A stretch of 20,599 nucleotides of DNA from a virus. The position numbers and the translations under genes were made by a program. The notes under the pieces were generated by a model. That model searched no databases, had not been told where the DNA came from, and was given only the letters and a program-made list of their open reading frames with translations. The DNA lies in the IMG/VR virus record IMGVR_UViG_3300032087_003963, positions 1 through 20,599 of that record; one strand, 5' to 3'. Position 1 is the stretch's first letter, and each line of letters opens with the position of its first letter. This document shows, in pieces, positions 9,545 through 18,466 of this stretch.

Positions 9545-9675
9545 CAGAATTTCTGAGACATGTTTTTGGTTTATGTGGCGAAGGTCATGTGAACATTTGG
9601 ACGTTATTGGTGGGCGGTTTTGCTTCACTGAATTTCATAGTATATAAATTGTTACAGTATGCAGGAAAGATTTAG
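9541..9675 (+). CDS. 44-residue single-pass membrane mini-protein
   Basis: This ORF starts in an ATGA overlap with the preceding stop and ends at TAG 9673-9675, overlapping the start of QueD by 17 nt in another frame. The product begins MTEFLRHVFGLCGEGHVN and continues with one hydrophobic segment of about 20 residues (roughly 18-38), then a short basic end (YAGKI). It looks like a single-pass inner-membrane peptide. The tight overlaps on both sides and the FGLCGEGH segment before the helix argue for a real gene. Function unknown; a role in host-membrane alteration is one possibility, with no direct support. Confidence 0.6.
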   Translation: MTEFLRHVFGLCGEGHVNIWTLLVGGFASLNFIVYKLLQYAGKI

Positions 9676-10126
9676 ATCTACAAAAATATATGATGGCTAT
9701 TCTACTTGCTTCCGGCAGTGGAAAGCAGTTGATACGCATTGTCAATATCTCCATGGATATTCAGTGTCTCTGAAAGTGACATACGAGGGCGATTTGGATT
9801 TTAGAAACTGGGTAGTTGATTTCGGCAGAGCAAAAAGATCTGAAGAATGTATTGATGGTATGAATCTTAAAGAGTGGTTATCATACATGTTAGATCATAC
9901 AGTTATCATAGCAGAGGATGATCCTGCATTGAGCGATTTTCAGAAGATGGCTTTCGAAGGAGTTATTCAGTTACGAGTGATACCTTCTGTAGGTGCAGAG
10001 AAGTTTGCAGAATATTTCTATCATAAACTCAATGAATGGGTAACAAAAGATACGAATGGCAGATGTCGAGTAGCATCTGTGGAAGTTAGAGAACACGAAA
10101 AAAATAGTGCAATATATGAAGTGTAA
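9659..10126 (+). CDS. queD: QueD-like 6-carboxytetrahydropterin synthase (variant metal site)
   Basis: This 155-residue member of the 6-pyruvoyltetrahydropterin synthase/QueD family would convert dihydroneopterin triphosphate (from FolE) to 6-carboxytetrahydropterin, the substrate of QueE. Family marks are C28-x3-H32-G33 (HCQYLHGYS), NWVVDFG (50-56), LDHTVIIAEDDP (78-89, with the catalytic Asp-His pair D79/H80), VGAEKFAEYF (111-120) and a C-terminal VEVREHE. The usual zinc motif HGH reads HGY here, and the N-terminal AAH histidine is not obvious (GYSTCFRQWKA), so metal binding must differ. It overlaps the membrane mini-protein upstream and QueE downstream. A related activity on 7-carboxy-7-deazaguanine is an alternative to true QueD chemistry. 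Confidence 0.86.
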   Translation: MQERFRSTKIYDGYSTCFRQWKAVDTHCQYLHGYSVSLKVTYEGDLDFRNWVVDFGRAKRSEECIDGMNLKEWLSYMLDHTVIIAEDDPALSDFQKMAFEGVIQLRVIPSVGAEKFAEYFYHKLNEWVTKDTNGRCRVASVEVREHEKNSAIYEV

Positions 10127-10892
10127 AAGATTAAGAAGTTATGAAAAACCTCTACAGGTACTTGAGCTCTATACTGCAGTCCAATCTGAAGGTTCAAGAC
10201 AAGGTTATCCAACTATTGTAGTTAGAACATCAGGTTGTACTCATAGATGCTTCTTTGGTGAAGGAGGATGGTGTGATAGCTGGTATACATCTATCCATCC
10301 GGAAAAAGGCACTTTCTGTTTTAACGACATTATTAAGATGTATGATGATAATCCTCATATCAAAGAAATGATGTTAACAGGAGGATCTCCTACAATGCAT
10401 CCTGCTTTAGTAAATGAATTAACTCATTTTGCTCATGAGCGAGGAATCTTTATTACTATTGAAACAGAAGGATCACATTTCCTAGAAACTGATTATCCTA
10501 TTGATCTATTATCCATTTCACCTAAGTTTAGTAATTCTATTCCAGTAGTAGGAGCTAAGACACCGTTGGGAGAAATAGTAGATGAGAAAATGATTATCAA
10601 ACATAACAGTAAAAGATGTAATAAAGAAGCAATCAAAGCTTCTATTGAATATCATAAAGATTATCATATCAAACCTGTATTAGATAAAGAACTTAGCATT
10701 CTCCCAGAAGTAGAAGAGTTCGTTAAAGATCTAGAGATACCAAATGAGAAGATTTGGTGTATGCCTGCTGGTGATGACATTCCTGCTCTACAAGAATCTT
10801 ATCCTGTAGTAATGAACTTTGTTAGAGATAGAGGATGGAGGTTTACTGGAAGAAGTCATATCATGGCTTTTGGTACAGAAAGATGTGTATAA
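10116..10892 (+). CDS. queE: QueE-like 7-carboxy-7-deazaguanine synthase (radical SAM)
   Basis: This 258-residue radical-SAM enzyme would rearrange 6-carboxytetrahydropterin to 7-carboxy-7-deazaguanine. The N-terminus VLELYTAVQSEGSRQGYPTI matches the QueE entry segment (Y/F-S-I-Q-G-E-G in classical forms). The iron-sulfur cysteines are C41, C45 and C53, a CX3CX7C spacing instead of the usual CX3CX2C, with FFGEGGW inserted before CDSWYTS. SAM-binding GGSP is at 89-92, and IWCMPAG near the C-terminus is typical of the family. I chose ATG 10116, which overlaps the QueD stop by 11 nt; a GTG at 10107 is also in frame. Proline codons here are mostly CCT and arginine almost only AGA, unlike neighbouring genes, suggesting separate acquisition. 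Confidence 0.91.
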   Translation: MKCKRLRSYEKPLQVLELYTAVQSEGSRQGYPTIVVRTSGCTHRCFFGEGGWCDSWYTSIHPEKGTFCFNDIIKMYDDNPHIKEMMLTGGSPTMHPALVNELTHFAHERGIFITIETEGSHFLETDYPIDLLSISPKFSNSIPVVGAKTPLGEIVDEKMIIKHNSKRCNKEAIKASIEYHKDYHIKPVLDKELSILPEVEEFVKDLEIPNEKIWCMPAGDDIPALQESYPVVMNFVRDRGWRFTGRSHIMAFGTERCV

Positions 10893-10943: not shown

Positions 10944-11237
10944 ATGAAAATGAAACCTATGGGCGATTATGTTCTCCTTAAGAAGCAAGAAGGTCAAGAA
11001 ACTACTAAAGGTGGTATCATTCTGACCACTGAGTCTAACAATTATGAATATGCAGATGTCATAGCTGTTGGTCCAGGATTGTTTACTCAGACAGGAGACA
11101 GAATTCCAATGACTTGTAAAGTTGATGATATAGTATTAGTTGCATCACGATGGTTAAAAGGAGACAATGAAGTGTCATTCGATGATGAGACATATGTTTT
11201 AGTTAGAGAGGCAGAAGTGGTAATGGTATCAAATTAA
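10944..11237 (+). CDS. 31: GroES/gp31-like co-chaperonin
   Basis: This 97-residue GroES-fold protein would cap the host GroEL, most likely to fold phage proteins such as the capsid protein, as T4 gp31 does. MKPMGDYVLLKKQE corresponds to the GroES beta strand that opens the domain. TTKGGIILTTES (20-31) is the mobile loop with the hydrophobic GIIL that contacts GroEL. ADVIAVGPG (37-45), DDIVLVASRW and the C-terminal YVLVREAEV complete the fold. The length is that of bacterial GroES, and the sequence is closer to GroES than to T4 gp31. It leads a unit that continues with FolE, HPRT and polymerase and has its own promoter candidate and Shine-Dalgarno sequence. Confidence 0.93.
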   Translation: MKMKPMGDYVLLKKQEGQETTKGGIILTTESNNYEYADVIAVGPGLFTQTGDRIPMTCKVDDIVLVASRWLKGDNEVSFDDETYVLVREAEVVMVSN

Positions 11238-11267: not shown

Positions 11268-11939
11268 ATGTGTAAAAACAAAGTAAATTTAGAACTAGTA
11301 AAGGCCGGTTATGCCAATGGTGCAGCCGAAGGTAGGCCTTTAACAGAAGAAGAGAAGCAGGTAATGATTGCAGATGCTGAAGAGGCATTTGGTAAATTCT
11401 TAGATGCATTAGGTGTGGATTGGCGCAATGATCCGAATTCAGATAAAACACCGTATCGTGTTGCAAAAGCATATGTGAGAGATCTTTGGGCAGGTCGATA
11501 TGATGCCCCACCTGAGATAACTACATTCCCATCTGATGGTTATGATGGTATTGTGTTTGAAGGAGGCATTCCTTTGACTTCCATGTGTTCGCATCATCAT
11601 CAAACTATCATGGGAGTGGTTCATGTTGCATACATACCAGGTAAAGATGGTAAAGTGATTGGATTATCAAAGCTGAATCGATTGGTAGAGCATTTTGGTA
11701 GAAGAGGTGCTATACAGGAACAATTAACTGTTGCAATACATCATGCCGTTGATGCCATCATAGAAGACAATGCAGGTGTGGCAGTAATGATAGAAGCCAC
11801 TCATAATTGCGTGCAATGTCGTGGTGTGAAGCATGGAGGCGCTAGTATGAAGACTAGTAAGTTAACTGGCGCATTTAAAGATGATTCGGCAACCAGAAAT
11901 GAATATTACGAATTTGTCAGAGGTTATGGTACTAATTAA
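11268..11939 (+). CDS. folE: GTP cyclohydrolase I (FolE)
   Basis: This 223-residue enzyme converts GTP to 7,8-dihydroneopterin triphosphate, the first step of 7-deazaguanine (and folate) synthesis. The zinc and catalytic residues are clear: MCSHHH gives C107, H109 and H110, and HNCVQCRGVKH gives C181 as the third ligand (with an extra C184). TPYRVAKAYVRDLW (61-74) and GLSKLNRLVEHFGRR (132-146) are standard FolE segments. The length matches the bacterial enzyme. It lies 30 nt after the co-chaperonin and its end overlaps the HPRT gene by 14 nt. With QueD and QueE just upstream, it most likely feeds the deazaguanine pathway rather than folate. Confidence 0.97.
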   Translation: MCKNKVNLELVKAGYANGAAEGRPLTEEEKQVMIADAEEAFGKFLDALGVDWRNDPNSDKTPYRVAKAYVRDLWAGRYDAPPEITTFPSDGYDGIVFEGGIPLTSMCSHHHQTIMGVVHVAYIPGKDGKVIGLSKLNRLVEHFGRRGAIQEQLTVAIHHAVDAIIEDNAGVAVMIEATHNCVQCRGVKHGGASMKTSKLTGAFKDDSATRNEYYEFVRGYGTN

Positions 11940-12426
11940 AGAGGCAGATATCAAAGCCAGAGTAAAACAGTTGGCACAGGAAATTGTGGAGGACCATAGA
12001 AGTTCAGGTAATGAACATCCTCCAGTTATGGTATGTGTGTTGAACGGGGCTAGCATATTCTTTGCAGATCTGATCAGAGAGATGAATTTAGATGTGCAGG
12101 TAGATTTTGTTCGAGCCAAGTCATACGTAGGTAAAGACAATTCTGGAGGAGTGATATTTACCAAAGATATGGAAATGCATATCCGTGGTCAACGAGCATA
12201 TATTATTGATGACATTCTGGACACAGGTAACACCATGTTGGAAGTTGTACTTCGAGTAAATGAAATGTTACCAGAAGAAGTTCGTGTTGTGGCATTACTT
12301 CAGCGTGAGAATGGCCCACAGAGAGCAGATTTTTATGGATTTGAAATAGGTGATGATTGGGCGTATGGATATGGTATGGACAATAATTCACTGAATAGAA
12401 ACTTAAAGGATATACACATAGTTTAA
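11926..12426 (+). CDS. hpt: Hypoxanthine-guanine phosphoribosyltransferase
   Basis: This 166-residue purine-salvage enzyme joins hypoxanthine or guanine to PRPP to give IMP or GMP. The start at 11926 gives MVLIKEADIKARVKQLAQEI, matching the usual HPRT N-terminus; an ATG at 11881 in the same frame would add 15 unrelated residues inside folE. VCVLNGASIFFADLIRE (36-52) is the first binding loop, YIIDDILDTGNTM (92-104) the PRPP loop, and WAYGYGMDNNSLNRNL (145-160) the purine-binding C-terminus. It overlaps folE by 14 nt and the polymerase start by one base (TAATG). Phage HPRT is uncommon. Here it could recapture guanine released when DpdA exchanges bases in DNA and return it to GTP for FolE; this is inference from context. 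Confidence 0.93.
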   Translation: MVLIKEADIKARVKQLAQEIVEDHRSSGNEHPPVMVCVLNGASIFFADLIREMNLDVQVDFVRAKSYVGKDNSGGVIFTKDMEMHIRGQRAYIIDDILDTGNTMLEVVLRVNEMLPEEVRVVALLQRENGPQRADFYGFEIGDDWAYGYGMDNNSLNRNLKDIHIV

Positions 12427-14909
12427 TGTATCAAGCAATATCGTATAGAAGAAGTGATAACACCATACATTTATGGGATGACACTACAGGTTACAAGAAG
12501 ATCAAATACAAGCCATATGCTTATCGCAAAAGCAGATATGGTAAGTATGTGGCATTGGATGGGCAGCAGGTAGAAAAGGTATTTGAATTTGAAAGAGGCG
12601 AACCTGGTTTATACGAATCAGATATAAGTCCAGAGACGAGAACTCTGATAGATCTGTATACTGATTCAGATGAAATATCAACTGGTCATCGAACATTGTT
12701 TTTTGATATTGAGGTTGATACTACAGATAAGTTTCCTACTCCAGAGACTGCAGAGAATGCAGTCACATCTATAGCAATATTAGATGCGTCGAAAGGACAA
12801 CGAGTGGTATGGATTTTAGATCCGGATGGTACTGTAGAGAACCAGATCATTGATAATAAAACAGTTGTGTCTTGTGCTACAGAGCATGAATTGTTAGACA
12901 AGTTTCTCAGAAAATATGTTGAGATACAACCGACCATCATAACAGGTTGGAACATTGACTTCTTTGACGTTCCTTATTTGTTCAATCGAATCAGTAAATT
13001 GCTGGGAGAATCTCGCGCGAGGCAGTTATCTCCTATCAAAGATGTGATCTGGATGAAGCATAGAAATCGTTATCGAATTTCAGGTGTTGCAAGTCTAGAT
13101 TATATGGCATTGTATAAGAACTTCACATATTCACAGGAGAGCAGTTATTCTCTGGAAGCCATTTCGCAGAAAGAGTTAGGCAAAGGAAAAGTGAAGTATG
13201 ATGGCTCATTGGATGATCTGATGAGAGATGATATCATGAAGTTCATTGATTACAACATGACAGATGTGGATCTAGTCTATGAGCTCGATGAGAAAATGAA
13301 ATTGATTGATCTTGCAAGAGGTATTTGTCACAAAGGACATGTTGCATATGATGATTTCATATTTGCAACCAGATATCTAGATGGAGCTGCTCTCACATAT
13401 CTAAAACGCTTGAACATTGTGGCACCATCACGTGCAACCAGAGATTCTTCAGAACCATTAGATCTGTTAGGAGCATATGTGAAACCTCCTAATCCAGGTA
13501 GATATAAATGGGTATATGATTTAGATTTGACATCTCTATACCCGTCCATTATTATGACTCTGAACATATCACCAGAAACCAAAGTTACTAAGATAGATAA
13601 TTTTGATGGTAACAGTTATGTTAAAGGTAAGGGCCAACATTACACTGATGGATGGAATGGTTGGGAAGATACAGCCGAACTGAAAAAGTATCTGGATGAT
13701 AATGATTATTCTATTGCAGCTAATGGCGTCATCTATGATAAGAAGTTGAGCGGTTTTCTGCCAACTATTCTCGACAATTGGTTCAATGAGCGAGTTGAAT
13801 ATAAGAATCTGCGTAAGAAATATGAGAAGGAAGGTGATAAAGCGAAGGCTGAATACTTCGATCGTATGCAATTAGTAACTAAGATTCTTTTGAATTCATT
13901 CTATGGAGTATTAGGTAATCCAACTTTTAGATTTTTTGATCCTGACAATGCTGTTGCCATTACAAGTACAGGTCAGCAGTTGATCAAGTTCACTGCAGAC
14001 ATTGGTAACAAGTTCTATGAGAATGAACTTGGAGTGAAGAAAGATTATAACATATACATTGATACTGATTCAGTGTTCTTCTCATCATTGCCTCTGATCG
14101 AGAAACGGTTTGAAACATTTGATGAGACTGATGAAAAGTGGATGGCTGATCGAACCATTGAGATTGCAACTGAAATGCAGACATTCATTAACAATGCTTA
14201 TGACATCTATGCTAAACGGTTCCATCATGTAGACAAACATAGATTTGATATCAAGCAGGAGTTTGTTGCAAAGGCAGGTCTCTGGATTGCTAAGAAGAGA
14301 TATGCGCAGTGGTTGATCAATCAGGAAGGGCATACCATTTCCAGATTAGATGTGAAAGGATTGGATGTGGTAAGATCTTCATTCCCGCCTGCATTCCGAT
14401 CTTTCATGGCCGAAGTTCTGGAGGATATTCTGAATGACATTGAGAAGAATGATCTGGATGCCAAGATATTGAAGTTCAAAGATGACATTAAAGGTATGAC
14501 CATAGATCAGATCATGTTTCCTACAGGTATAAAGAATGTTAAGAAGTATCAAATTAAAAATGCAGATACATTTGCCCCGCGGCTAAAAGGAACACCTGTC
14601 CATGCCAAAGCAGCTTTGAATTACAATGACATGTTGACTTATCATAATGTGTTTAATGTTAGAGAGATTGTGAATGGCGAAAAGATTAGATGGACATATC
14701 TAAAGAATAATCCTTTACGTCTAGATGTGATGGCATTGAAAGGCAATGAAGATCCGGAGGCTCTTCATGATTACGTCGATCAGTACATTGATCATGACAA
14801 GATATTCAGATCAGCATTTCAGAACAAATTAGATGACTTCTATGGTGCATTGAATTGGGGTAAGATACCAGATAACAACAATTTGCAAAAATTCTTCTCA
14901 TTTGGTTAG
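12426..14909 (+). CDS. 43: gp43-like family B DNA polymerase with proofreading exonuclease
   Basis: This 827-residue replicative polymerase has a complete proofreading domain: Exo I FDIEV (D94, E96), Exo II GWNIDFFDVPYL (174-185, D181) and Exo III YNMTD (276-280). The polymerase motifs are A, DLDLTSLYPSI (365-375, metal ligand D367); B, KILLNSFYGVLGN (486-498); and C, IDTDS (545-549, D546 and D548). The C-terminus LQKFFSFG resembles the clamp-binding tail of T4 gp43 (LDFLFG). T4 gp43 has 898 residues; the shorter N-terminal domain accounts for much of the difference. It starts inside the HPRT stop codon (TAATG). No intron, intein or split is visible. Unlike T4, no regA gene is adjacent. Confidence 0.98.
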   Translation: MYQAISYRRSDNTIHLWDDTTGYKKIKYKPYAYRKSRYGKYVALDGQQVEKVFEFERGEPGLYESDISPETRTLIDLYTDSDEISTGHRTLFFDIEVDTTDKFPTPETAENAVTSIAILDASKGQRVVWILDPDGTVENQIIDNKTVVSCATEHELLDKFLRKYVEIQPTIITGWNIDFFDVPYLFNRISKLLGESRARQLSPIKDVIWMKHRNRYRISGVASLDYMALYKNFTYSQESSYSLEAISQKELGKGKVKYDGSLDDLMRDDIMKFIDYNMTDVDLVYELDEKMKLIDLARGICHKGHVAYDDFIFATRYLDGAALTYLKRLNIVAPSRATRDSSEPLDLLGAYVKPPNPGRYKWVYDLDLTSLYPSIIMTLNISPETKVTKIDNFDGNSYVKGKGQHYTDGWNGWEDTAELKKYLDDNDYSIAANGVIYDKKLSGFLPTILDNWFNERVEYKNLRKKYEKEGDKAKAEYFDRMQLVTKILLNSFYGVLGNPTFRFFDPDNAVAITSTGQQLIKFTADIGNKFYENELGVKKDYNIYIDTDSVFFSSLPLIEKRFETFDETDEKWMADRTIEIATEMQTFINNAYDIYAKRFHHVDKHRFDIKQEFVAKAGLWIAKKRYAQWLINQEGHTISRLDVKGLDVVRSSFPPAFRSFMAEVLEDILNDIEKNDLDAKILKFKDDIKGMTIDQIMFPTGIKNVKKYQIKNADTFAPRLKGTPVHAKAALNYNDMLTYHNVFNVREIVNGEKIRWTYLKNNPLRLDVMALKGNEDPEALHDYVDQYIDHDKIFRSAFQNKLDDFYGALNWGKIPDNNNLQKFFSFG

Positions 14910-14941: not shown

Positions 14942-15379
14942 ATGTTAGGAATAAAAGATTATTGGTACGGAAAAGAATGTGAAGGTAGATTCACAGACAT
15001 CATGACATTCTTCATTGGAAACTTCACTCCAGAAACGCCTAAGCGTCCGGATGCCCCACATATCTACATATGTACGCCGGCAACTAGACAGCTTATTGAT
15101 AAGACATCTCCATTGGATTGGGATTGGTTATTGAATCTGATGATAGTTCAGGAGGTTCCGGTTACCATAGAAGTGCAACCAGGCATGCTAAAATACATTC
15201 CAGCCATGGTACGAGTATATGCTCATATCATGTTCATGATGGAAGCGGAGGATGCATCCTTGTTGAAAGAAAATGACAGCATCAAAGTGTTGTATGCAGA
15301 TTATTCATTGTATTGTACAAGTATACAGAACATGCAGCATGTGACACCAGATGATTATAAATTTGATAGAGCATTATGA
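14942..15379 (+). CDS. Hypothetical protein, 145 residues, coupled to the glycosyltransferase
   Basis: I do not recognise this protein. It begins MLGIKDYWYGKECEGRFTDI and contains HIYICTPATRQLIDKT, a WDWLLNLMIVQEVPVTIEV stretch and an Ala/Met-rich helix (YAHIMFMMEAEDASLL). The short hydrophobic stretches look like buried strands and helices, not membrane spans. It is the first gene after a candidate promoter. Its TGA overlaps the glycosyltransferase ATG (ATGA), as that gene in turn overlaps dpdA, so the three are probably made together. A role as an accessory factor in base modification is suggested only by this coupling. Confidence 0.8.
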   Translation: MLGIKDYWYGKECEGRFTDIMTFFIGNFTPETPKRPDAPHIYICTPATRQLIDKTSPLDWDWLLNLMIVQEVPVTIEVQPGMLKYIPAMVRVYAHIMFMMEAEDASLLKENDSIKVLYADYSLYCTSIQNMQHVTPDDYKFDRAL

Positions 15380-16563
15380 AAAGAAAATTATTTTACTTCG
15401 GCTTAGAGCCATTGAAAGCTAGATATACATATCAGCTTTGCAAAGAGTGGATGCCTAAAGCATTCGAACCATATTCAAAACGTTTGGACTTCGTAGAAGT
15501 CGAAGGCGAAATGGTTGATCAGGAAATAAAGGTCGGCGCAGTGTTAGATGCAGTTGGCCGAGGTGTATATTCACTGAGTCAATGCAATCAGTTTCTGAAA
15601 ATGATCAATGAAGGTAAAGTCAAAGACAATGACATCATCTTCCTGCAAGATTATTGGACACCTGGTTTAGATGCCATATGGTACGCATTAGATCTTTATG
15701 GTATCAAAGTGAAAGTGTATGCCATGTTACATGCACAGTCAGTTGATGAATATGATTTCACTTATCCAATGCGAGATTGGATGAGACAATATGAACTTGG
15801 GTTAGACAAACGAATGTCTGGTATCTTTGTAGGCAGTACAATTCATAAACAGCAGCTACGTGATGCAGGATTCAATGCTCCAATCCATGTAGTGTCATTG
15901 CCTATTCATAAGGACGCAACTCTAACTAAACTGCCCGCAGGTAACTATGGGAAGAAGAAAGTTATTGTTTATTCTTCTCGATTAGATAAGGAAAAGAATC
16001 CTTATTTCATGATGAAAGTTGCCGAAACCTTTTTATCATATCGTCCAGATTATGAATGGCATGTCACTACCTCTGGTAAGGAGTTCAGAAGTATGACGCC
16101 AGGAGTCATTGACGAACTCAAAGCATTGGCAAAGCGTCAGCCTCGATTCAAACTCTTGAGTGGATTGACTAAACAGGAATATTATACAGAATTAGCAACT
16201 TGTAAGATTCAGTTCAATTCATCACTTCAAGATTATGTTTCCTGGACAGCAATTGAAGCTACAGCATTTGGGGCAGACATTGTATATCCATTTTTCAGAA
16301 GTTTTCCTGAGTTCATTACACCGAAACGTATGTATAAGGCATTTGATGTGAAAGATGCTCTGGAAACTATTGAAGATGCGATTGAAGCTCCGATGGCACA
16401 TCCACATATTGTTGATCGTTCTGATTTAGGTCGCAGAACAGAAGCATTTATTGTGGCAAATGATTTTGATAAAGAACTTAATGTTTGGCATGAGAAGGAG
16501 TACATTGAAGCCTTAATTGCTGGACCAGCATATAATAATCAGTTAACATTGGATTTCGAATGA
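15376..16563 (+). CDS. GT-B-fold glycosyltransferase (GT4-like)
   Basis: This 395-residue protein looks like a retaining GT-B enzyme of the GT4 type, which transfers a sugar from a nucleotide donor. The C-terminal donor domain has KKVIVYSSRLDKEKNPYF (194-211, the R202/K205 phosphate-contacting element) and QDYVSWTAIEATAFGADIVY (285-304). In the latter the usual EX7E pair appears as D286-x7-E294. RSFPEFITP follows. The N-terminal half (to about 185) would bind the acceptor, with IIFLQDYWTPG and YAMLHAQS typical of GT-B strands. It overlaps both neighbours by 4 nt (ATGA), including dpdA downstream. The acceptor is unknown; coupling to dpdA suggests a modified base in phage DNA, while a protein or host glycan is also possible. 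It does not resemble the T4 alpha- or beta-glucosyltransferases as I know them. Confidence 0.88.
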   Translation: MKRKLFYFGLEPLKARYTYQLCKEWMPKAFEPYSKRLDFVEVEGEMVDQEIKVGAVLDAVGRGVYSLSQCNQFLKMINEGKVKDNDIIFLQDYWTPGLDAIWYALDLYGIKVKVYAMLHAQSVDEYDFTYPMRDWMRQYELGLDKRMSGIFVGSTIHKQQLRDAGFNAPIHVVSLPIHKDATLTKLPAGNYGKKKVIVYSSRLDKEKNPYFMMKVAETFLSYRPDYEWHVTTSGKEFRSMTPGVIDELKALAKRQPRFKLLSGLTKQEYYTELATCKIQFNSSLQDYVSWTAIEATAFGADIVYPFFRSFPEFITPKRMYKAFDVKDALETIEDAIEAPMAHPHIVDRSDLGRRTEAFIVANDFDKELNVWHEKEYIEALIAGPAYNNQLTLDFE

Positions 16564-17747
16564 AAGAGTTAGTATATTATCCATCACTATCATCAGGAGG
16601 TTTTGCTAGTTGGTCGAAGAAAGACAAGGAGGTAGCACCTGGCATTCCGGCTAGATTCTATTCTCCAGAATTTCCAGAACCATGGCGTCATGAATATTTT
16701 CTGATCACAGCAGGTCATCATTACAAGAAGCCTGAATCTCGTAAGGAGTATGGATTAGGTGACAATGTGAAAGTGATGGGCGACTCTGGAGGATTCCAAT
16801 TGGCTACTGGTGCAATCAAATGGAAGCCAGAGTTCAAAGAAACTATATTTCATTGGTTGGAGAATAACTGTGATATCGGAGTTAATCTTGATATTCCACC
16901 GAGAGTGAAGTATGAGGGTAAGTTCTATGAGTGTCTAGATATCAGTTATGAGAACTTCAAATATTTTGCAGACAATCAATCTGGTAAGTGTGATTTCCTG
17001 AATGTGATTCAAGGTAACAATTTGGCAGAGTATGAGTATTGGTATAAGAAGGTAGCTGATTTTGATTTCAATGGTTGGTGTATCGGAGGTACTCAAAGTG
17101 GTCTTGTGTTATTAATGCAAGCTATTGCAGTGATGTTACAGAACGGAGAGTTTGATAAAGAACGAAATCGTTACATTCACATTCTAGGTATTTCCAAAGT
17201 ATCTGACTTCTTCATATTGGCATACTTCCAGAAAATGATAAACGAATATTACGGAGGTAGAATTCAGATATCAACTGACTCAAGTTCTCCGGGACAGTAT
17301 CCTGTTTATGGTATTTATCTGCATTCACCGCAATTAGGTAAGATGGTGTTCAATCAACTTCATTTTCCAAAAGGTGATGCTTTACCATACAAAGAAACAG
17401 ATCCGGTTCCTAATCCATATGGTCATCCAGTAGCTGAAGGTTTCACATTTGGCGATGTAGCTAAATATGATGCTTCATGTATGAACAAGATGACCATAAA
17501 CAATCTGATTGTTTACAATGAAACGGTTCGTCAGGTTACAGAACTAGTGAAGTGCCATGATGAATTAATAAGTTTGATGCTCCCTAATGAATTTTATCGA
17601 GCAATGACATCAATGAGAGAGATGTTTGCACATCCAGATAAGGCATATGAAATCTATGAGAAGTCACTGCCTTTATATAAGAAATACAGTTCGACGCAAG
17701 AAATATCAAACGACAGTGTATTAAACCATTTTTTTAACGTTACATAA
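16560..17747 (+). CDS. dpdA: DpdA-like DNA-guanine transglycosylase (TGT superfamily)
   Basis: This 395-residue homologue of tRNA-guanine transglycosylase is the type that in phages and genomic islands exchanges guanine in DNA for a 7-deazaguanine. Matching TGT signatures run in order: VMGDSGGFQLATG (72-84, D75), NLDIPP (109-114, D111), NVIQG (148-152), GWCIGG (172-177), HILGI (207-211) and STDSSS (238-243), where D240 is the likely nucleophile. The CXCX2C...H zinc site of tRNA TGTs is absent, as expected for a divergent, DNA-acting form. It starts in the glycosyltransferase stop (ATGA) and ends 2 nt before the clamp gene. With FolE, QueD and QueE it forms most of a DNA-modification pathway. 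A tRNA substrate cannot be excluded from sequence alone. Confidence 0.9.
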   Translation: MKELVYYPSLSSGGFASWSKKDKEVAPGIPARFYSPEFPEPWRHEYFLITAGHHYKKPESRKEYGLGDNVKVMGDSGGFQLATGAIKWKPEFKETIFHWLENNCDIGVNLDIPPRVKYEGKFYECLDISYENFKYFADNQSGKCDFLNVIQGNNLAEYEYWYKKVADFDFNGWCIGGTQSGLVLLMQAIAVMLQNGEFDKERNRYIHILGISKVSDFFILAYFQKMINEYYGGRIQISTDSSSPGQYPVYGIYLHSPQLGKMVFNQLHFPKGDALPYKETDPVPNPYGHPVAEGFTFGDVAKYDASCMNKMTINNLIVYNETVRQVTELVKCHDELISLMLPNEFYRAMTSMREMFAHPDKAYEIYEKSLPLYKKYSSTQEISNDSVLNHFFNVT

Positions 17748-17749
17748 TT

Positions 17750-18466
17750 ATGAAGAAAACAGAATTATTAAGTTTTATCAATCGTTATTATCTGAATGGA
17801 GCAGTGAATTCTGTGAAATGGAAAACATCAGATAACGGTTGTACTATTGAGTTCATATCAGATGATCAAAATGTGATAGGAACATTGACAAGCGATTCCA
17901 TTGAATTAGGAACATCTGAATTAGGAGTTTATGCTACTCCATTACTGACAAAGATGTTATCAGCCGTATCAGATGATGTGGACATTGATGTGAACAAGGT
18001 TGGAGATAAAGCTGTTAGTTTGGCTATCTCTGATGGTGAAGTTAACATGACCTTCATGTTGGCAGATCTTAGCATCATCCGTCAGGTTCCAGAACTGAAG
18101 AACATGCCCGATTGGAATGTGACTATTCCTATCACAGATGATTTCCGTAACAAGTTCATTAAGGCAAAGAATGCCATTCCAGATGCTGATAATTTTGGAG
18201 TGCATGTTAGTGCAGGTACGGCGGAGTTGGTTATCAATTATTCCACTATCAATAACAATAGAATTAAATTCAATATTGATGCTGATGATGCTACTGATAT
18301 GGGTATGACATGCTTTTCAGCATCACTGCTAAAAGAAATGATGATGGCTAACAAAGATGCTACTCAGGCTAAGTTGGAAGTGTCTGCAGCAGGATTGGCT
18401 CGTGCCACATTCACCGGATCTGATTATGAGTGTACATATTTCCTAGTTCAATTACAAGTAAGCTAA
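17750..18466 (+). CDS. 45: gp45-like sliding clamp
   Basis: This 238-residue processivity clamp would ring DNA as a trimer and tether the gp43 polymerase. Sequence similarity to T4 gp45 (228 residues) is diffuse, as usual for clamps. It is supported by length, by the beta-rich pattern, by an N-terminal segment LLSFINRYYLNGAVNSVKWK typical of divergent phage clamps, by FMLADLSIIRQVPEL in the interdomain region, and by the C-terminal strand ECTYFLVQLQVS. Position is strong support: it directly precedes dUTPase and the gp44 clamp loader. In T4 the clamp also activates late transcription; no gp33 or gp55 is seen here. Its stop overlaps the dUTPase ATG by one base. Confidence 0.92.
   Translation: MKKTELLSFINRYYLNGAVNSVKWKTSDNGCTIEFISDDQNVIGTLTSDSIELGTSELGVYATPLLTKMLSAVSDDVDIDVNKVGDKAVSLAISDGEVNMTFMLADLSIIRQVPELKNMPDWNVTIPITDDFRNKFIKAKNAIPDADNFGVHVSAGTAELVINYSTINNNRIKFNIDADDATDMGMTCFSASLLKEMMMANKDATQAKLEVSAAGLARATFTGSDYECTYFLVQLQVS

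Follow-up and report, generated by a model that had tools for sequence, protein, structure and literature searches.

A conserved phage block of a GT4-type glycosyltransferase and a DpdA-like enzyme as a candidate route to sugar-bearing 7-deazaguanine in DNA

In this study, we analyzed a block of three genes in a stretch of viral DNA of 20,599 bases, which is a complete IMG/VR record (IMGVR_UViG_3300032087_003963) and is called the window in the following. Its gene content is that of a T4-like phage, with genes for a single-stranded DNA-binding protein, UvsX/RecA, an exonuclease, a DnaB-like helicase, ribonucleotide reductase, a family B polymerase, the clamp, a dUTPase and clamp loaders. The block encodes a small protein (P1), a glycosyltransferase (GT) and a DpdA-like protein (P0003), for which a sequence-only reading had proposed a glycosylated deazaguanine as common product. 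The three plus-strand genes are indeed joined by two ATGA overlaps, as that reading had described:

14942..15379, + strand: P1, 145 residues, open reading frame assigned to a new family; GT partner conserved upstream of the GT gene, relative of family c6
15376..15379, + strand: ATGA stop/start overlap of P1 and GT
15376..16563, + strand: GT, 395 residues, retaining-type GT-B/GT4 by fold and donor-site residues; proposed deazaguanine glycosyltransferase
16560..16563, + strand: ATGA stop/start overlap of GT and DpdA-like gene
16560..17747, + strand: DpdA-like protein, 395 residues, predicted base-exchange enzyme of the TGT superfamily, distinct subfamily; D75 (in DSGGFQ) and the presumed nucleophile D240 invariant

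The overlaps had also been taken to imply a common task. Many other gene pairs in the window overlap as well, by 1, 4 or more bases (at 2350, 8316, 9320, 10107, 11881, 12426 and 18430), so that the ATGA overlaps alone are weak evidence. Unlike the overlaps alone, the arrangement itself, which is conserved in relatives, is beyond chance, and the comparative evidence for a common task is strong.

The second gene had been read as encoding a GT4-like glycosyltransferase, and structure prediction bears this out. The AlphaFold2 model shows a full GT-B fold (pLDDT 91.4; best Foldseek E-value 6e-14), and its structural matches are retaining GT4 enzymes, with BshA (5d01) first at Z 26.6 over 321 residues and with tetrahydrobiopterin (BH4) glucosyltransferases among them (9v0l, Z 24.1; 5zes, Z 23.0), while T4 alpha-GT and beta-GT are not among the best 50. 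At the donor site, all members have R202 and K207 and at least 90% have E294; the EX7E motif is present as D286-X7-E294 in the clade of the window and as E-X7-E in most other members. With BshA, MshA and the BH4 glucosyltransferases the protein thus shares the GT-B fold (Z 23-26.6 across some 320 residues) and the donor-site R, K and E, but sequence identity to them is 10-12%, and an N-terminal loop after the first strand, EPLxxRYT, is typical of the GT family of the window. Since fold and residues agree with this class while the Pfam cut-offs discussed below are missed, the name GT4-type is used here by fold and residues.

To which pathway the GT belongs is best seen from its distribution. 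Searching phage records by tblastn yielded 29 with DpdA and 20 with the GT. All of these 20 also have DpdA, which in phages X1, ACP17 and BUCT-ZZ01 is a diverged DpdA of DSGGLQ type beside the GT. Pseudomonas putida phages, Vibrio phages and NCTB have DpdA without a GT match, and QueC is present in the two DpdA phages without GT that were checked for it (Peetri and GR7B). The GT hence implies DpdA and not the reverse, as expected of a decoration step. Scans of IMG/VR yielded three clades: A with 67 window-like loci, B with 72 Phosso-like loci and C with BUCT-like loci, the latter taken as 80 of at least 599 pattern-confirmed GT homologues obtained with one query; a scan with the single GT protein of X1 gave no match. 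Although the GTs of the three clades are only 20-35% identical, their surroundings agree. Among well-flanked loci, defined by 5 kb or more on either side of the GT (11 in A, 45 in B, 48 in C), DpdA accompanies the GT in 11/11, 44/45 and 48/48, respectively, which makes 103 of 104. P1 or its c6 relative was found in 11/11, 37/45 and 43/48, FolE in 9/11, 43/45 and 45/48, and QueE in 9/11, 39/45 and 22/48 of them. GT and DpdA share a strand in every locus where the two were found (65/65 in A, 61/61 in B, 74/74 in C). A distribution mostly among phages lacking deazaguanine genes, which would have spoken against the proposed link, was therefore not observed for the GT. As a separate observation, five viral contigs of 125-180 kb (those behind loci L222, L220, L104, L166 and L205) each give 10 to 21 matches to radical-SAM domains, far above the one QueE that would be expected.

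Sister phages show gain or loss of the whole block. Contigs found by centring on the polymerase, with about 50% polymerase identity, include five in which the clamp directly follows the polymerase and P1, GT and DpdA are jointly missing; searches of these whole contigs, which may be fragments, detected neither DpdA nor GT. The sisters retain polymerase, clamp and early deazaguanine genes, and three of the five (L265, L266 and L269) have QueC. In two QueC contigs that were read gene by gene, genes for QueF-like, formyltransferase-like and small TGT-like proteins take the place of P1, GT and DpdA, a set which fits a formyl-preQ1 DNA pathway. The late pathway thus seems to be swapped as a unit. 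GroES- and GroEL-like genes follow the clamp in sister contigs.

An independent context is given by bacterial contigs, which again tie the GT to deazaguanine metabolism. A scan of GTDB with the GT alignment returned 27 loci, in 21 of which a DpdA lies on the same stretch. Named alphaproteobacterial strains or metagenome-assembled genomes account for about a dozen loci, the genera being Devosia, Shimia, Sulfitobacter, Methylobacterium, Aurantimonas, Magnetospirillum, Pelagibacterium and Azospirillum. Eight of the pairs (L290, L292, L293, L294, L295, L297, L303 and L306) adjoin a gene for a membrane protein related to Vut_1, a family of queuosine-precursor transporters; a CAjan gene annotated as putative preQ0 transporter matches the same profile. 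Some of these pairs are also accompanied by a large unknown protein, and L306 by an integrase-like gene. Within the stretches examined, neither FolE nor QueE was found near the alphaproteobacterial pairs.

A GT unrelated to base modification, for example one altering the cell surface, might be co-inherited with replication genes, as the polymerase-clamp neighbourhood is itself conserved. This appears very improbable, because the sisters keep polymerase, clamp and early deazaguanine genes yet lose P1, GT and DpdA jointly, and because GT-DpdA pairs recur in bacterial contigs that lack the neighbours seen in the phages. On comparative grounds, it is close to certain that the GT belongs to the deazaguanine pathway.

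The third gene had been called DpdA, an assignment that holds at the level of the superfamily. The protein matched no Pfam family. A profile of 40 DpdA-like relatives found archaeosine TGT as best match in the PDB (E 2.4e-5), along with queuine TGTs, and D75 and D240 are invariant in all 40 sequences. In an alignment to the TGT of Z. mobilis, D75 falls on the base-binding aspartate of DSGGFQ and D240 on the Asp at 280, the nucleophile of that enzyme. The curated equivalog of bacterial DpdA (NF041059) scores 16.3 bits against a cut-off of 200, so far below that the label DpdA-like, for a distinct subfamily, is used. The likeness to DpdA of 9g and CAjan is faint (E 0.004 with one profile and none with another; hhalign 2-5%). 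The protein is therefore best called a distinct DpdA-like subfamily and a predicted base-exchange enzyme, diverged from the curated DpdA family.

The best PDB matches of the DpdA-like profile are tRNA enzymes, which brings up a different target. Transglycosylase and GT could modify host or phage tRNA and make an analogue of glycosylated queuosine, a nucleoside known from animal tRNA (QTMAN/QTGAL), which likewise has a sugar on a 7-deazaguanine nucleoside but differs in being in tRNA and in its cyclopentenediol acceptor. We consider this quite unlikely: the genes sit between DNA polymerase and sliding clamp, the window has no tRNA genes, and the nucleophile motif TDSSS is closer to CDSSSW of 9g DpdA than to FDCVLPTR of TGT.

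P1 gave no convincing match in Pfam, PHROGs, NCBIfam or PDB sequences and is, by these comparisons, a new family. In 61 of the 64 clade-A loci with room for it, P1 precedes the GT. In clades B and C, a family of about 175 residues (c6) is found near GT and DpdA, and profile comparison by hhalign gave 91% for P1 against c6 (87% in a repeat), with at most 4.5% for the others of 72 comparisons. G10, E12, E14, Y139 and D142 are invariant, and P1 is judged homologous to c6 from these profiles. A joint P1/c6 profile has members in the whole genomes of PA5oct and ACP17 and none in three whole DpdA phages without GT match, which indicates that P1 tracks the sugar branch rather than DpdA itself. P1 is not universal among GT-bearing phages and bacterial pairs, as the joint profile found no member in BUCT-ZZ01, X1, Phosso or PhiXhv, and P1 was not found in the alphaproteobacterial GT-DpdA pairs. 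It is perhaps a dedicated accessory of the sugar branch.

Structure prediction, which the sequence-only reading had suggested for this protein, gave a confident AlphaFold2 model (pLDDT 93.3). Its best structural match by VIA-align is QueE (5th5; Z 5.9 over 121 of 145 residues), a score below the noise level stated for the tool. P1 as a QueE pseudoenzyme was rejected as an assignment: hhalign gave 5-9%, which is not above the null set and is equally reached by the GT profile, the radical-SAM motif CxxxCxxC is absent from the sequence, and no QueE model is among the families listed for 48 members. The EG..T.F segment of P1 does align with the N-terminal motif of QueE, and the idea that P1 is a QueE relative without the cluster, which would carry the base or present it, is treated as a lead only. 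Small proteins adjoining the GT in Phosso, BUCT-ZZ01 and PA5oct were unsupported as P1 homologues and belong to a separate PTPS/QueD-like family (c4); a 143-residue protein before the GT of X1 looks P1-like by eye and fails the profile tests. Family c4, with about 120-145 residues, is found near the GT in clades B and C and at L302:9134-9478, in some loci alongside canonical QueD, and possibly serves a separate step.

Upstream of the block, the window encodes the early enzymes of deazaguanine synthesis, and the block is bordered by replication genes:

9659..10126, + strand: QueD, 6-carboxy-tetrahydropterin synthase (PTPS 1e-14; phrog_2389 5e-40)
10107..10892, + strand: QueE, 7-carboxy-7-deazaguanine synthase (phrog_2076 1e-49; below cut-off of the NCBIfam QueE models)
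11268..11939, + strand: FolE, GTP cyclohydrolase I (PF01227 2e-46)
11881..12426, + strand: HGPRT-like phosphoribosyltransferase (PF00156 1e-22; HGPRTase model 2.7e-40, 137.9 bits against a cut-off of 150)
12426..14909, + strand: family B DNA polymerase, upstream neighbour of P1 (phrog_262 2e-191)
17750..18466, + strand: sliding clamp, downstream neighbour of the DpdA-like gene (phrog_223 7e-11)

A GroES (Cpn10) gene (10944-11237) lies between QueE and FolE. QueC was not found in the whole genomes of PA5oct, BUCT-ZZ01, ACP17 and Phosso, and 12 clade-A-type contigs, possibly fragments, likewise gave none. Thus, 7-carboxy-7-deazaguanine (CDG) is likely the base made by the phage, unless the host supplies preQ0. 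Hints on the sugar donor come from clade C, where the gene directly 3′ of the GT is mostly galE (a representative passes the curated score with 309 against 262 bits) and where genes for a nucleotide-sugar dehydrogenase or a nucleotidyltransferase are common in the vicinity, pointing to UDP-glucose or UDP-galactose as donor there. The role in donor handling that had been suggested for P1 fits this galE better. In the window phage, the host would supply the nucleotide-sugar donor.

Taken together, P1, GT and the DpdA-like enzyme probably carry out the last part of a pathway by which the phage modifies its DNA with 7-deazaguanine. Starting from GTP, FolE, QueD and QueE would make CDG. The DpdA-like enzyme, acting by a covalent mechanism at an aspartate, would then put the deazaguanine base in place of guanine in phage DNA, and the HGPRT-like enzyme may salvage the guanine freed. 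The GT would transfer a sugar from a nucleotide-sugar donor, probably a UDP-hexose, to the 7-substituent of the base as the presumed point of attachment, either in DNA or, if the order is reversed, just before insertion; P1 would perhaps present the base or recruit the GT. A sugar-bearing 7-deazaguanine in DNA is the best explanation of the data and probably the product. The functional link of GT and DpdA in the original proposal is thus upheld, and its chemistry is carried forward as a prediction.

Several points weigh against this interpretation. The GT stays below the cut-offs of the Pfam GT4-type models (19.1 against 27 bits and 17.4 against 26.4 bits) and reaches the cut-off of no curated family. 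The carboxylate is the only acceptor at position 7 of CDG, which is unusual for a sugar transferase, and an extra activation step may therefore be missing. Some GT homologues are accompanied by a QueC-like protein (L268, L276) or by Gat-QueC (PhiXhv), so that one acceptor does not fit all and the acceptor may vary. DNA rather than tRNA is the presumed target, and sequence is no proof of it. Finally, in the clade of the window, an Asp replaces the first Glu of EX7E. This last point would suit a GT fold that transfers no sugar and serves, for instance, as a DpdA subunit that binds DNA or presents the base; we hold this to be very unlikely, since R202 and K207 never vary and E294 hardly does, EX7E is intact in most other members, and galE adjoins the GT in clade C.

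With respect to acceptor variation, the GT homologue of phage PhiXhv-12 (L077:3654-6888) has beside it a gene annotated as deacetylase and another, annotated as aminotransferase, that resembles Gat-QueC, an arrangement that could be a glucosamine-type variant. At L276:5159-8008, in a relative in which the GT is present too, class V aminotransferase-like and QueC-like genes directly precede DpdA.

The GT could also have a small-molecule substrate from the pathway, either a pterin or the free deazaguanine, in the manner of the cyanobacterial tetrahydrobiopterin glucosyltransferases, with the glycoside not being put into DNA. The presence of FolE and PTPS-type proteins and the BH4 glucosyltransferases among the structural matches are in line with this. 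It is nevertheless unlikely, as BshA is the better structural match, the most constant partner of the GT, DpdA, acts on nucleic acid, and the alphaproteobacterial pairs have DpdA while lacking FolE and QueE in the stretches examined.

Sugar transfer to deazaguanine in DNA would extend known systems. The FolE-QueD-QueE-QueC-DpdA modification of phages 9g and CAjan (PMC6884629) likewise combines FolE, QueD, QueE and a TGT-superfamily exchange enzyme with replication genes; the system described here differs in that no QueC was found, the DpdA subfamily is diverged, and GT and P1 are constant partners. In the main text of that paper, "glyco" never occurs. T4 alpha-GT and beta-GT, which act on 5-hydroxymethylcytosine, are comparable in that a phage GT is proposed to put a sugar on a modified DNA base, but here the base would be a deazapurine. 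In the 5-carboxymethylcytosine hypermodification by CmoX/CmoY (PMC12783734), a carboxylate on a DNA base is also the handle for decoration, but by amide ligation on cytosine instead of sugar transfer on deazaguanine. No report of glycosylated deazaguanine in DNA was found among the open papers searched, and priority is uncertain. The papers on MIJ3, Paride and Callisto have no passage on deazaguanine DNA.

In its widest form, the proposal is that a widespread GT-DpdA module, present in several phage lineages and in alphaproteobacterial contigs, installs glycosylated 7-deazaguanine in DNA, that the phages start from CDG and not preQ0, and that P1 is a new accessory, possibly a cluster-less relative of QueE; to this combined statement we give even chances. 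It is directly testable because isolates exist of phages (PA5oct, Callisto, Paride, BUCT-ZZ01, X1 and ACP17) and of bacterial strains (Devosia, Shimia, Sulfitobacter, Magnetospirillum and Azospirillum). If true, one base would unite two ways in which phages camouflage their DNA, namely replacing a purine and coating with sugar, and resistance to many nucleases would be predicted. It would also explain unknown genes next to deazaguanine operons and add a new kind of DNA-pathway glycosyltransferase.
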